From positions 672 to 64,671 of the forward strand of contig NZ_VHQG01000005.1 in NCBI RefSeq assembly GCF_006517435.1: a stretch of DNA of 64,000 nucleotides, given 5' to 3'. This document shows, piece after piece, positions 3,827 to 51,108 of this stretch. Each line of letters starts with the position of its first letter. Within the stretch, counting starts at the first letter, position 1. Source of the stretch: Schumannella soli (GTDB taxonomy: Bacteria > Actinomycetota > Actinomycetes > Actinomycetales > Microbacteriaceae). The notes under the pieces were generated by a model. The model was given only the letters and a program-made list of their open reading frames with translations, ran no database searches and was not told where the DNA came from. Made by a program: the position numbers and the translations under genes.

Positions 3827-4576
3827 GACCAGCGTCACCTCGAAGGAGTAGAGGTCGGGACGGTACGAGTGGTGGCCGAACTCGATCACGCGGGCGTTGT
3901 CGTCGTAGGCGGTGCGGTCCATCGTGAGCACAGCCGAGTGCTTCTCGAGCTCGAGCAGCTTCGACTCCTCGTTGGTCGCCGAGCGGGCGCCGATGCGCTG
4001 CCGGGCGACGCGGATCGACACCCCGCGCCCGCGCAGCAGCTGGTACATGCCGTGCTCGGTGAGCTGCTCGGCGGTGATGTCGGCGAAGTCCTCGGGCAGG
4101 TAGTTCTCGAGCAACGCGAGCGGCACGTCATCGGCGAGCCGCACGCGGCGCACGTGCAGCACATCGGCGCCCTCGGCGATCGCGAGACGCTCGGCGATCG
4201 CGGCGTCTGCGGGCACGACCTCGTGCAGCAGCAGCTGGGTGCGCGGAGTGCGTGACGAGGCGGCGAGATCCTCGAACAGGCTCGTCAGCTCGACCTTGCG
4301 GGTCACCCCGCCGTGCACGACCTGCGTGCCGATGCCGCGGCGTCGCACCAGCAGCCCCTTGTCGACGAGCTCCTGGATGGCACGCCGAATCGTCGGACGC
4401 GACAGCCCCAGACGGCTGGCGAGAGCGATCTCGTTGTCGATGCGGGATCCGGCCGACACGGTGCCGTCGGAGATCGCGCGCTCGATGCGGCTCGCCACCT
4501 GGTAGTAGAGGGGCACGGGGCCCGAGCGGTCCATGTCGAGGAACAGGGATGCCGGGAGGGTCGGGTCTGCGTCCAT
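3818..4576 (-). CDS. GntR-family regulator, HutC/UTRA type, probable inositol repressor
   Basis: DNA-binding regulator of 252 aa. Residues 18-90 form a GntR winged helix-turn-helix (IALASRLGLSRPTIRRAIQE as recognition region, then KGLLVRRRGIGTQVV). Residues 100-250 form a UTRA effector domain that would bind a small sugar-like ligand. The gene sits between iolBD and the ABC importer. Its own promoter region carries the inverted repeat TTTGT-N4-ACATT at 4605-4618, 29 bp before the start; the same motif lies in front of the importer and of the second inositol operon. I infer that it autoregulates and represses inositol genes. The effector could be an inositol intermediate, but this is not shown by sequence. 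Confidence 0.88.
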   Translation of the reverse strand: MDADPTLPASLFLDMDRSGPVPLYYQVASRIERAISDGTVSAGSRIDNEIALASRLGLSRPTIRRAIQELVDKGLLVRRRGIGTQVVHGGVTRKVELTSLFEDLAASSRTPRTQLLLHEVVPADAAIAERLAIAEGADVLHVRRVRLADDVPLALLENYLPEDFADITAEQLTEHGMYQLLRGRGVSIRVARQRIGARSATNEESKLLELEKHSAVLTMDRTAYDDNARVIEFGHHSYRPDLYSFEVTLVDR

Positions 4577-4604
4577 GCAGCGGCCACCTCACCTTCGTCG
4601 TGAC

Positions 4605-4618
4605 TTTGTGGGGACATT
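4605..4618. promoter_or_regulatory. Putative GntR operator (site 1)
   Basis: TTTGTGGGGACATT fits the inverted repeat TNTGT-N4-ACANA except for its last base. It lies in the 143-bp region between the GntR gene and the divergent thioesterase gene. Matching sites occur at 6488-6501 and 9774-9787. Confidence 0.6.
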
Positions 4619-4719
4619 ATCACCTGGCCGCGCGCGGTCCCCGGTGACGCGTCGCGGTGCGGTCAACGGCTCCGCTATTGTCAGCATGTCCTGACATGAG
4701 ACCCGAAGTCGGAGAGACC

Positions 4720-5133
4720 ATGAGCGTCGACGCCATCACCTTCCGCACCCGCAAGTGGGTGCGACCCGAAGATCTCAACGCCAACGGCACTCTCTTCGGC
4801 GGCAGCCTGCTGCGCTGGATCGACGAGGAGGCGACGATCTACGCCATCCTGCAGCTCGGCAACCACCAGGTGGTCACCAAGTACATGTCCGAGATCGAGT
4901 TCGTCTCCTCCGCCCGCCAAGGCGACATCATCGAGATGGGCCTGCGGGCGACGGCCTTCGGCCGCACCTCGCTGACGATGCGCGCCGAGGTGCGCAACAT
5001 GATCACCCATCGCAGCATCCTCACCGTCGACCGTGTCGTCTTCGTCGGCCTCGGCGACGACGGCCGGCCGACGCCGCACGGCTACACCGAGATCACCTTC
5101 GACCGCGACCGCATCCCGCCGCAGACGGCCTAG
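4720..5133 (+). CDS. Hotdog-fold acyl-CoA thioesterase
   Basis: Cytosolic enzyme of 137 aa expected to hydrolyse acyl-CoA. It is a single hotdog domain of the YciA/acyl-CoA hydrolase group: NANGTLFGGSLLRWIDEEAT (residues 18-37) holds the conserved Asn-Gly-x-x-Phe-Gly-Gly and catalytic Asp region. An upstream in-frame start at 4657 exists, but ATG 4720 is preceded by GGAGAG at good spacing and matches the family N-terminus. A TGTCAG-N6-CTGACA inverted repeat at 4679-4696 lies just upstream and may be a regulatory site. The gene is convergent with the dehydrogenase that follows. A role in inositol metabolism is not evident. Confidence 0.87.
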   Translation: MSVDAITFRTRKWVRPEDLNANGTLFGGSLLRWIDEEATIYAILQLGNHQVVTKYMSEIEFVSSARQGDIIEMGLRATAFGRTSLTMRAEVRNMITHRSILTVDRVVFVGLGDDGRPTPHGYTEITFDRDRIPPQTA

Positions 5134-5159
5134 CGGCGGCGGGGGATGCGCCCCGGCGC

Positions 5160-6344
5160 TCACGCGTCGAACGTCGTCGGCCCGTCGACCACCGGCACGG
5201 CCTGCCAGGTGCGGCTCACCGCGGTCGCCTCGGCCGCATCCAGGATCGCCGCCGCCGACCAGCCGTCGGCGACCGACGGGGCCAGCTGACGCTGCTCGGC
5301 GATCGACCGCAGGAACAGCTGCGCCTCGATCGTCTTGAGGTCGTCGAAACCCATGCTCGTGCCGGCGCCGGGCTGGAATCGGCTGAACTCGCCCATGCCC
5401 GGAGCGGCGTACACGGTGCGGTAGCCACCGGGGCCCTCGGCGAGCTGCAGCTCATTGAGGCGCTGGAAGTCCCAGCGCAGCGACCCGGCCGTACCGTAGA
5501 CCTCGAGGCGGTACTCGGCGTGCGGCCCGACCGCGATGCGGCTGGTCTCGAGCACGCCGATCGCCCCGTTGTCGAAGCGCGCGAGCGCGGCGGCGTAGTC
5601 CTCGTTCTCGACGGGGGCGCGCTCGGCCGAGGCGTCACCGCGGCTGAAGTGGCTCGCGGCGCCGGCCGCCGGCACGGGCCGCTCGGCGATGAAGGTCTCG
5701 GTCACGCCGCTGACCTCGGCGATGCGGCCGACGACGTACTGCGCGAGATCAGCGCCGTGGGCGAGCAGGTCGCCGAGCACGCCGCTGCCCGCCTGCGCGC
5801 GCTCGAAACGCCAGGTGCGGGCGCCGTCGGGGTCGGAGGAGTAGTCGGCGAGCAGGGCGACGCGCACGTTCGTGATGCGGCCGAGGCGGCCCGAGCGCAC
5901 GAGCTCGCGGGCGTGGGCGACAGCGGGCGCCTGCCGGTAGTTGAACCCGACCGAGGTGAACACACCGGCCTCGACGGCGCCGCGGGCGATGTCGGCGGCC
6001 TCATCCACGGTGCGGCCCATCGGCTTCTCGATCCAGAAGTGCTTGCCGGCCGCGGCTGCGGCGAGCGCGACCTCGCGGTGCAGGAAGTTCGGCGAGCAGA
6101 TCGACACCGCATCGATGCGCGGATCGGCGAGAACCTCGCGGTAGTCGGCGACCGCCTCCGCGTAGCCCAGCGCGGTGGTCGCGTGCTCGCGCCCGCTCTC
6201 GACCGGGTCGGCGGCGCTGACCAGGTCGACGTCGATGCCGAGCTCGGGGTAGTGCCGGGCGACCTCGGTGTAGGCGCGCGAATGCAGGCGGCCCATCCAT
6301 CCGACCGAGACGAGGCCGATGCCGATGCGGGTGCGTGAGTTCAC
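5160..6344 (-). CDS. Gfo/Idh/MocA-family dehydrogenase
   Basis: NAD(P)-dependent sugar or cyclitol dehydrogenase of 394 aa. The Rossmann motif GLVSVGWMGRLHS is at the N-terminus, the catalytic lysine motif is WIEKPMG, and the substrate-site Asp/His pattern appears as GDLLAHGADLAQY. I chose GTG 6344 because GGAGGA lies 6 bp upstream; the open frame extends 23 codons further without support. It is divergent from the ABC importer genes, sharing a promoter region with operator-like site 6488-6501, so it is probably co-regulated with uptake. It may oxidise an inositol isomer or another sugar taken up by that importer. The substrate cannot be read from sequence. Confidence 0.9.
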   Translation of the reverse strand: MNSRTRIGIGLVSVGWMGRLHSRAYTEVARHYPELGIDVDLVSAADPVESGREHATTALGYAEAVADYREVLADPRIDAVSICSPNFLHREVALAAAAAGKHFWIEKPMGRTVDEAADIARGAVEAGVFTSVGFNYRQAPAVAHARELVRSGRLGRITNVRVALLADYSSDPDGARTWRFERAQAGSGVLGDLLAHGADLAQYVVGRIAEVSGVTETFIAERPVPAAGAASHFSRGDASAERAPVENEDYAAALARFDNGAIGVLETSRIAVGPHAEYRLEVYGTAGSLRWDFQRLNELQLAEGPGGYRTVYAAPGMGEFSRFQPGAGTSMGFDDLKTIEAQLFLRSIAEQRQLAPSVADGWSAAAILDAAEATAVSRTWQAVPVVDGPTTFDA

Positions 6345-48236: not shown

Positions 48237-48256
48237 CGCTCCCGGCTCCTTCTCGT

Positions 48257-48380
48257 GAGTTGCCCGCTTCCGCGGCTTGTCGTGCGTGACATTCCGCGGA
48301 AGTGGGCAACTCGCGTCCTCCGCCGAGTTGCCCACTTCGGCCGGGTTCTCGTCTCGGAAGCCGGCAGAACTAGGCAACTC
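48257..48380. repeat. Two tandem stem-loops built of GAGTTGCCC arms
   Basis: A 19-bp arm at 48257-48275 pairs with 48294-48312 with one G-T wobble. A second copy of GAGTTGCCCACTTC starts at 48325 and pairs less well with AGGCAACTC at 48372-48380. Both lie just after the catalase gene and may end its transcript. Confidence 0.75.
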
Positions 48381-48453: not shown

Positions 48454-48524
48454 CGTGAGGGGTCGCAAAGGCCCCTCGCGGACCCCGATTCGAGCCTTCG
48501 ACGGGGCCTTTGCGACCCCTCACG
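48454..48524. repeat. Intergenic palindrome with perfect 22-bp arms
   Basis: Positions 48454-48475 (starting CGTGAGGGGTCGC) are exactly complementary to 48503-48524, with a 27-base loop. It is downstream of both the catalase and the convergent Clp genes. A smaller repeat with the CTCGGGGGAG core follows at 48547. Confidence 0.8.
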
Positions 48525-49803: not shown

Positions 49804-49844
49804 GGCTCCACCGTGCGCTCGAGCGGGTGCCGCTGTCGCCGGAA

Positions 49845-49873
49845 TCTGCCGTGCGCAGATCTGCTGACAGCAG
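49845..49873. promoter_or_regulatory. Overlapping palindromes upstream of the clp operon (PopR-like box)
   Basis: TCTGCC-GTG-CGCAGA (49845-49859) is nearly the Streptomyces PopR element TTCTGCC-3N-GGCAGAA that activates accessory clpP genes. It overlaps the perfect palindromes GCAGATCTGC (49855-49864) and CTGCTG-A-CAGCAG (49861-49873). The cluster lies 42-70 bp before the clp start codon. No PopR/ClgR gene is in the window. Confidence 0.55.
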
Positions 49874-49977
49874 AGCCCTCCGCAGCCGACATTTGTCAGC
49901 ACAAAGTCGCTAGCGTGGATGCGCGGCGCCCGCTCACGATGCGGCGTCGCGATCACATCCAGTCGAGGAGGACCCCG

Positions 49978-50814
49978 ATGAGCGACGCGCTCGCACCCCG
50001 CACCCTGAACGACGGCCACAGCATCCCGGCGATCGGATTCGGCAGCTACCCGCACCACGGCGAGGACAGCGACGAGATGGTCACGAACGCGCTCGACCTG
50101 GGCTACCGCCTGATCGACACCGCGCTGCGCTACGAGAACGAGGTCGAGGTCGGCGCGGCCGTGCGCCGCAGCTCCGTTCCGCGCGACGAGATCGTCGTCA
50201 CCTCGAAGCTCGCCGGGCGGCACCACGGTCGCGACGGGGCGCGTCAGGGCGTCGCCGACTCGCTGAAGAACCTCGGGCTCGAGACGATCGACCTGTTCCT
50301 CATCCACTGGCCGCTGCCGAAGCAGGGCAAGTTCGTCGACACCTGGAAGACGCTCGTCGAGCTGCGCGACGAGGGCAAGCTGCGCTCGATCGGCGTCTCG
50401 AACTTCACGCCGCAGCACCTCGAGCAGATCATCGACGCGACCGGCGTCGTGCCCGCAGTCAACCAGGTCGAGCTGCATCCCGCGTTCACGCAGACAGAGC
50501 TGCGCAAGGTGCACGACGAGCTCGGCATCGTGACCGAGGCGTGGAGTCCGCTCGGCCGCGGCACGGGCCTGCTCGACGAGCCCGTCATCCGCGACGCCGC
50601 CGAGAAGTACGGGGTGACGACCGGGCAGATCGCGCTGCGCTGGCACGTGCAGCAGGGCATCGTGCCGATCCCGATGTCATCGAACCCCGCGCGCCGCGCC
50701 GCGAACCTCGAGCTCGCCGGCTTCGCGCTGACGGATGACGAGGTCGCCGCGATCTCGGCCCTCGACCGCGGCCGCATCTGGGGCCAGGACCCGGACGAGC
50801 ACGAGGAGTTCTGA
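49978..50814 (+). CDS. Aldo/keto reductase (2,5-diketo-D-gluconate reductase-like)
   Basis: NADPH-dependent cytosolic reductase of 278 aa with the AKR5-like pattern. The catalytic tetrad is visible: Asp and Tyr in LIDTALRYENE, Lys in VVTSKLAG, His in FLIHWPLP. Cofactor-binding motifs IPMSSNPARRAANLEL and the C-terminal IWGQDPDEHEEF are also typical. GAGGAGG lies 5-10 bp before the ATG. Substrate is probably a small aldehyde or keto sugar. It is divergent from the clp operon and followed by a repeat-filled 294-bp gap. Confidence 0.92.
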   Translation: MSDALAPRTLNDGHSIPAIGFGSYPHHGEDSDEMVTNALDLGYRLIDTALRYENEVEVGAAVRRSSVPRDEIVVTSKLAGRHHGRDGARQGVADSLKNLGLETIDLFLIHWPLPKQGKFVDTWKTLVELRDEGKLRSIGVSNFTPQHLEQIIDATGVVPAVNQVELHPAFTQTELRKVHDELGIVTEAWSPLGRGTGLLDEPVIRDAAEKYGVTTGQIALRWHVQQGIVPIPMSSNPARRAANLELAGFALTDDEVAAISALDRGRIWGQDPDEHEEF

Positions 50815-50850
50815 CCCTCGCCGCCCCGACGCGGCCCGGCGCCTGACGCG

Positions 50851-51084
50851 GATACTGGCGAGCGGCGCACCCGGAGCCCTGGGCGGGCTCGGGTGGGCCG
50901 CTCGCCAGTATCGCGTGGCGTCTCGCCAGTATCGGGGCCGGTCAGGCATCGGCGGGTGAGGACGCGGCCGTCGACGGTCGTCCTCGGGATGCCGCGACGC
51001 GGACACTGGCGAGCGGGACCGCCGCGCGCCCCGGGCTGCTCGTGCCGACGCCTCGCCAGTATCGCGTGGCGTCTCGCCAGTATC
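50851..51084. repeat. Duplicated inverted-repeat element with CTCGCCAGTATC arms
   Basis: Six copies of CTCGCCAGTATC: forward complement at 50851-50862 and 51002-51013 (one mismatch), reverse at 50901-50912, 50922-50933, 51052-51063 and 51073-51084. The pair at 50901-50933 and the pair at 51052-51084 are identical over 33 bp, 151 bp apart. The element fills the gap between two convergent genes. Confidence 0.85.
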
Positions 51085-51108
51085 CGCGCGTCGCCGGGGG
51101 CGCCCGGG

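Follow-up and report, generated by a model that had tools for sequence, protein, structure and literature searches.

The accessory clpP operon described here, which lies within a 64-kb stretch of DNA (the window), is preceded by two abutting operators that share the layout of the Streptomyces PopR site. We consider it probable that they belong to a PopR-type backup circuit in which the operators have been retained and the activator has changed, with a ClgR/PopR-family paralogue encoded elsewhere in the genome, here called type B, being the likely activator in trans; this reading draws on sequence comparison. The PopR/clpP3clpP4 circuit comes from work by Viala et al. (2000, 2002) on S. lividans, as cited in PMC9775585, PMC9765437 and PMC12607617, and the Streptomyces clpP3clpP4 pair can, according to PMC9765437 and PMC12607617, replace lost housekeeping ClpP1P2, also in acyldepsipeptide-resistant mutants. 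Our literature search returned no title describing this circuit outside Streptomyces, though further papers cannot be excluded.

On the minus strand, positions 49874-49845 read TCTGCTGTCAGCAGA|TCTGCGCACGGCAGA, two abutting 15-bp imperfect palindromes located 5' of two overlapping clpP genes. The proximal operator (TCTGCGCACGGCAGA on the minus strand, 49845..49859) is centred 49 bp upstream of the ATG of the first gene, and the distal operator (TCTGCTGTCAGCAGA on the minus strand, 49860..49874) abuts it, with a centre-to-centre distance of 15 bp. The initial annotation had described a cluster of palindromes here, TCTGCC-GTG-CGCAGA (49845-49859), GCAGATCTGC (49855-49864) and CTGCTG-A-CAGCAG (49861-49873). 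Their sequences and positions were confirmed and the cluster is real, but the division into three separate palindromes was rejected: two abutting 15-bp operators account for all of it, GCAGATCTGC being their junction. The likeness to PopR was upheld, with a correction. It had been drawn with a single element, TTCTGCC-3N-GGCAGAA, whereas the site in print, as quoted in a review (PMC9775585), consists of two 15-mers placed end to end, TCTGCC-3N-GGCGAATCTGCC-3N-GGCAGA, and it is this tandem layout that the window shares. Set against TCTGCC-3N-GGCGAA/TCTGCC-3N-GGCAGA, the window agrees in layout and spacing and departs in the distal right half, which is AGCAGA rather than GGCGAA, and at a single inner position in the left half of the proximal operator. 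All four half-sites in the window read TCTGCN and none is TTCGC-like, unlike the quoted Streptomyces site with its one GGCGAA half.

The operon consists of a clpP3-like gene (P0001, 49177..49803, minus strand, 208 aa, PF00574) and a clpP4-like gene (P0002, 48563..49180, minus strand, 205 aa, a Clp protease by Pfam) that overlap by 4 bp. In a tree of 58 ClpPs, which took in 14 of the 33 loci of our active-site survey and the pair of genome G446 as separate rows, the first genes group with Streptomyces ClpP3 (support 98/97) and the second genes with ClpP4 (100/99), as would be expected of an accessory two-gene operon of this type. The description of the operon as serine-less applies to its second gene, in which the catalytic Ser is replaced by Gly with His and Asp retained, and not to the first, which keeps an intact Ser-His-Asp triad; the window pair therefore does not encode two catalytic subunits. 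The first subunit carries Ser-His-Asp in 33/33 surveyed loci. In the second, all 23 family loci (the 22 described below and a further genus member, G150) have Ala or Gly in place of Ser and always retain His, with Asp retained except in L029 (Glu). Streptomyces-type ClpP4, in contrast, retains Ser and has His replaced by Gly in 76/76. The second ClpP has Asp replaced by Ala in L243 (another family; 4445-5610) and holds the whole Ser-His-Asp triad in L239. Inactivation thus falls on different residues by lineage: Ser in the family, His in Streptomyces and Asp in L243 (loci compared: L008-L029, L230-L233, L246, L249, L250-L329 and L243).

To place the operators in an evolutionary context, we used the second ClpP protein of the window pair as a query against 150 genomes drawn evenly from the family, which we take to be Microbacteriaceae. 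The 22 best matches, the window's own included, are orthologous pairs (59-100% identity), while the next matches reach at most 47% and resemble housekeeping ClpP2. Conservation upstream of orthologous operons, the lack of which would have counted against the initial annotation, was found throughout: two operators precede the first gene in 22/22 pair-bearing genomes, spaced by 15 bp and with the proximal centre 48-50 bp before the ATG. The proximal operator holds the equivalent position in all 22 promoters, in L027 by the third of three sites (its best-scoring pair is sites 1-2, and the third lies at 50 bp). When leave-one-out matrices were allowed any spacing from 10 to 25 bp, 15 bp was chosen in 22/22. 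G150 has the identical tandem layout 49 bp from the start of its pair. In one genome the first clpP gene of the pair is broken across two reading frames (L016; G036:C1:884067-884586).

The tandem is far stronger than chance would produce. With a matrix built from 20 orthologous promoters, the window's own genus excluded, it scores 41.8 bits, compared with 8.4 for the next non-overlapping place in the 64-kb window; none of 100 simulated 64-kb sequences reached 41.8 bits, the best scoring 19.7. Other copies of the motif were also looked for, and a degenerate tandem pattern with at most one mismatch matches the whole genome at the window site alone. At up to three mismatches the same pattern gives 23 strand matches, fewer than the backward control (86), and a looser single pattern, TCTGCCNNNSGCAGA, occurs three times in the genome (control 1+1), the other two occurrences appearing, by eye, to be coding. 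We rejected the idea that the strict site is frequent, as exact TTCTGCYNNNRGCAGAA occurs in 15/150 genomes, below its backward control (22/150, rows counted by hand). Location alone, and not frequency, is informative for this exact site: by coordinates, 11 of the 15 copies lie directly upstream of popR-type genes. The copy in G051 lies inside the clpP1 coding sequence, as, judging by its position, the one in G121 probably does too; those in G117 and G100 are without assignment.

An aldo/keto reductase gene (49978..50814, plus strand, PF00248) diverges from the operon, and the palindromes, which lie between the two divergent starts and 104 bp from that of the reductase, could in principle serve this gene and a regulator of its own. 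The locus comparison largely refutes such a role, which we regard as highly improbable. The tandem stands upstream of clpP in 22/22 loci, whereas in the stretches compared, which cover these loci to about 0.8 kb upstream of the pair, the reductase is present at the window's own locus alone; its distance exceeds 4 kb in G118 and G150. We do not consider the gene part of the circuit. Downstream of it, a 94-nt sequence is directly repeated at 50845-50938 and 50996-51089; the copies are 77% identical, and the repeat has the inverted arms GATACTGGCGAG/CTCGCCAGTATC.

A -10-like box follows the operators at a fixed distance. In the window this box is CACGGT (49810..49815, minus strand), whose A falls at position +38 and T at position +42 relative to the centre of the proximal operator. 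When family promoters are aligned on that operator, a box of the form xAxxxTGG places A at +38 and T at +42 in 16/22, the other six being shifted by one (rows read by eye). The same two positions are each occupied in 48/50 Streptomyces rows, these rows being the pattern matches in 80 named loci, unfiltered for position. The spacing of the tandem operators to each other and to the -10-like box is therefore fixed in two distant lineages. The 80 named loci are mostly from Streptomyces; 76, from Streptomyces and near relatives, contain both clpP genes and four do not, and a strict tandem pattern is found within 300 bp in 55 of the 76 and is missing from that interval in the other 21. One difference concerns the start of the message. 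Because the offset of the -10-like box makes the ATG the likely point of transcription start, the clpP3-like mRNA, like that of the family, is probably leaderless, whereas in Streptomyces promoters a leader follows the box; the transcription start given here is that predicted from the position of the box.

The Streptomyces circuit includes a linked regulator gene, and the clpP-clpP-popR order with a convergent regulator is present in 6/6 Streptomyces-like loci that we read. In the family, a linked ClgR/PopR-family gene (type A) convergent with the pair is found at 19/22 loci; 17 of these 19 proteins end in Ala-Ala, and their recognition helix is mostly SPQYLSE or STQYLSE. The window departs from this arrangement: a search of the 15-19 kb surrounding the pair found no linked popR at E<=1e-5 in the window genome (G000), G118, G150 or G021. 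Weak matches between the catalase gene and clpP in the window (best E 0.025) were rejected as a popR remnant, as they land on a 22-nt perfect inverted repeat; in G150, some 5 kb from the pair, L180:1810-1902 gives a popR-type match with E 0.006. Two inverted repeats lie between catalase and the clpP pair in the window (48254-48315 and 48454-48524, the second with perfect 22-nt arms), and by eye repeats resembling the first are seen in the corresponding gap of G118 and repeats resembling the second in that of G150. Since the ClpP tree places G021 and the genus apart, each adjoining loci with linked popR, the linked gene was likely lost in two events.

Loss of the linked popR raises the prospect that the operators are relics and that the operon is now silent or constitutive. 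The absence of a linked gene around all four pairs fits with this, but the state of the operators speaks against it. The tandems of G000, G118 and G021 are the best-scoring among the 22 (42.6-42.7 bits, the next being 38.3), and CTG is kept in 16/16 half-sites of the four operons without linked popR (these three and G150), compared with 40/76 in the 19 with it. In addition, G118 conserves both operators although the surrounding spacer differs, and both clpP reading frames are open. On this evidence we think it improbable that the operators are relics.

If the operators are in use, as we favour, an activator should be encoded elsewhere. A ClgR/PopR homologue, on whose presence the initial annotation's backup circuit depended, is indeed there: the window genome encodes two such regulators, canonical ClgR (C6:1387459-1387698), with helix LGYLSE and an AVR terminus in place of an Ala-Ala end, and the distal type B regulator (C6:768691-769047; 119 aa), with helix SMPYLSE and a -VAA terminus, downstream of an OsmC-like gene (OsmC-like and cinA-like are labels given by eye to neighbouring genes). 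SMPYLSE is common to five of the six Streptomyces-like PopRs read, the sixth having SLPYLSE, so that type B has a PopR-like rather than a ClgR-like (LGYLSE) helix; like Streptomyces PopR it is a ClgR-family protein combining such a helix with an Ala-Ala end. In the regulator tree, which rests on 76 columns only, all type B proteins fall in a single clade (98/94) whose sister group is ClgR (91/84), while type A and Streptomyces PopR branch elsewhere. The candidate therefore sits on the ClgR side of the tree rather than with Streptomyces PopR, a placement to be read in light of the few columns; with the same reservation, type B and L235 are both set apart from Streptomyces PopR (97/98). The tree took in 15 of the 19 linked regulators; of the other regulators read, it omitted four that duplicate linked ones (L087, L090, L092, L094), the broken L091 and the unlinked type A gene L099. 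Set A1 comprises 13 hand-chosen regulators. L099 (G097:C1:208735-208956) is a popR-like gene of type A whose genome has two ClpP matches only, and L091 (G052:C17:24979-25284) is a type A gene with internal stops in a genome likewise with two ClpP matches only.

The distribution of type B is consistent with its having taken the place of the linked regulator. Type B was called in 15 of the 30 loci read, which were the strongest matches. It is thus present in at least 15/150 genomes, among them 3/3 pair-bearers without linked popR (G000, G118 and G021) and at least 12/128 genomes without the pair; among the matches listed, none of the 19 genomes with linked popR has one of type B strength (>=76 bits). 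Because the losses of popR were probably two events, this association is weaker than the counts suggest. Within the five genomes of the genus, G000, G118 and G150 have both the pair and type B, while G048 and G151 lack both; G151 does carry a third clpP, different in kind (L181, G151:C74:3260-3781).

Type B is also associated with clpP genes other than the pair. The type B gene is divergent from a solo clpP in G060, G126, G057 and G023, and in G125 the type B gene is separated by 79 kb from a solo clpP that is preceded by TCTGCGCAGGGCAGA, a precedent for action in trans. Eleven type B genomes lacking the pair were searched for ClpP: five have a solo third clpP and six have only two clpP genes. 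As these six genomes (type B regulators L074, L075, L077, L078, L085 and L086, some of them, by eye, downstream of an OsmC-like gene) have no accessory clpP, the comparison indicates that type B has further targets or other work. The type B promoters themselves are of two kinds, differing by genome, one with TCTGCY-3N-RGCAGA and the other with TCCGCY-3N-NGCGAA; that of the window genome is of the second kind, with TCCGCCCTCCGCGAA, the right half of which resembles a ClgR half-site. The distance from site to -10 in these promoters is 47-49 in 10/16, 38 in 2/16 and different in the other four.

Canonical ClgR is the other regulator that could read the operators, in which case the sites would be real PopR-type sites but the operon would be co-regulated with housekeeping clpP1P2 and would provide no separate backup. 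A match of ClgR strength (56-59 bits) is present in 5/5 genomes of the genus, and the ClgR regulon, represented by the clpP1P2 promoter, resembles the window in having a related regulator and a 15-bp palindrome with a GCY-3N-RGC core. Moreover, 38/58 ClgR-type sites in clpP1 promoters have one TCTGC half, and their -10 box lies 36-38 bp from the centre in 58/58 (L005 and further) and in six of the eight further ones (L032 and L034 being without it), a distance equal to that of the window operator. The half-sites point the other way, however. A ClgR-type site with an RGCGAA right half was found in 58/58 clpP1 promoters, the pattern used having required that half, and in eight others, whereas the window operators lack an RGCGAA half-site, being TCTGCN throughout. 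In addition, G048 and G151 have the ClgR-strength match and yet neither the pair nor type B, and the ClgR of the window genome has an AVR terminus and no Ala-Ala end; in helix (LGYLSE) and in its housekeeping target genes, too, the ClgR regulon is unlike the circuit proposed here. The presence of TCTGC as left half of the clpP1-promoter site was considered as a marker of type B and rejected: it is found in 13/13 type B genomes but also in 16/29 genomes with neither type and in 9/16 with type A. Taken together, the links of type B with solo clpP genes and the half-site evidence favour type B over ClgR as the reader of the window operators, without amounting to proof, and control of the operon by ClgR strikes us as unlikely, if less so than the relic explanation.

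With type B as the preferred candidate, the circuit could work as follows. Two abutting dimer operators would occupy the place of the -35 box and recruit RNA polymerase to the accessory clpP3clpP4-type promoter. While ClpP1P2 is functional, the Ala-Ala-tailed activator would be degraded, by analogy with Streptomyces as described in PMC9765437 and PMC12607617. If ClpP1P2 were lost or blocked, the activator would accumulate, two dimers would bind the tandem and contact RNA polymerase, and the spare ClpP pair would be made, induction again being assumed by analogy with the same accounts of Streptomyces. We infer that the tandem is bound by an activator of the ClgR/PopR family whose C terminus is Ala-Ala, the candidate here being the distal paralogue at C6:768691-769047, which would operate in trans. 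The two gene products would form a mixed ClpP core whose cleavage activity comes from the first subunit alone. A backup role for the operon is presumed from its Streptomyces counterpart.

On the history of the circuit we lean, by a modest margin of confidence, towards a regulator swap, in which the native popR was lost, probably twice, and a ClgR-sister paralogue, elsewhere divergent from solo clpP, took over in trans via the same operators. In the same reading, the second subunit was inactivated at different residues, at Ser here, at His in Streptomyces and at Asp in L243, as if a one-sided core had been selected. The comparison establishes that both the gene pair and the design of its operators and promoter, spacing included, are found outside Streptomyces; it offers what may be a naturally occurring exchange of activators over an operator that stayed as it was, as well as a comparative handle on the repeated inactivation of one ClpP subunit.

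Compared with the Streptomyces circuit, then, the window shares the tandem of abutting 15-bp operators, the -10 offset and a two-gene clpP operon grouping with ClpP3/ClpP4, and differs in lacking a linked popR and in which residue its second subunit has lost. Linked clpP-clpP-popR modules, in the family and on plasmids, offer a second comparison: they have related genes in the same order and a Ser-less second subunit, with tandem operators in the family loci, but unlike the window they retain a convergent popR-like gene beside the pair. The order clpP-clpP-HTH regulator is found on annotated plasmids of Tsukamurella tyrosinosolvens (plasmid 10), Streptomyces fungicidicus and Prescottella equi, and alignment revealed the same module in an unannotated Embleya plasmid stretch. 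Because the gene order recurs on plasmids, the module can travel. The plasmid-borne clpP-clpP-regulator modules in named Actinomycetes are L391, L392, L393 and L394.
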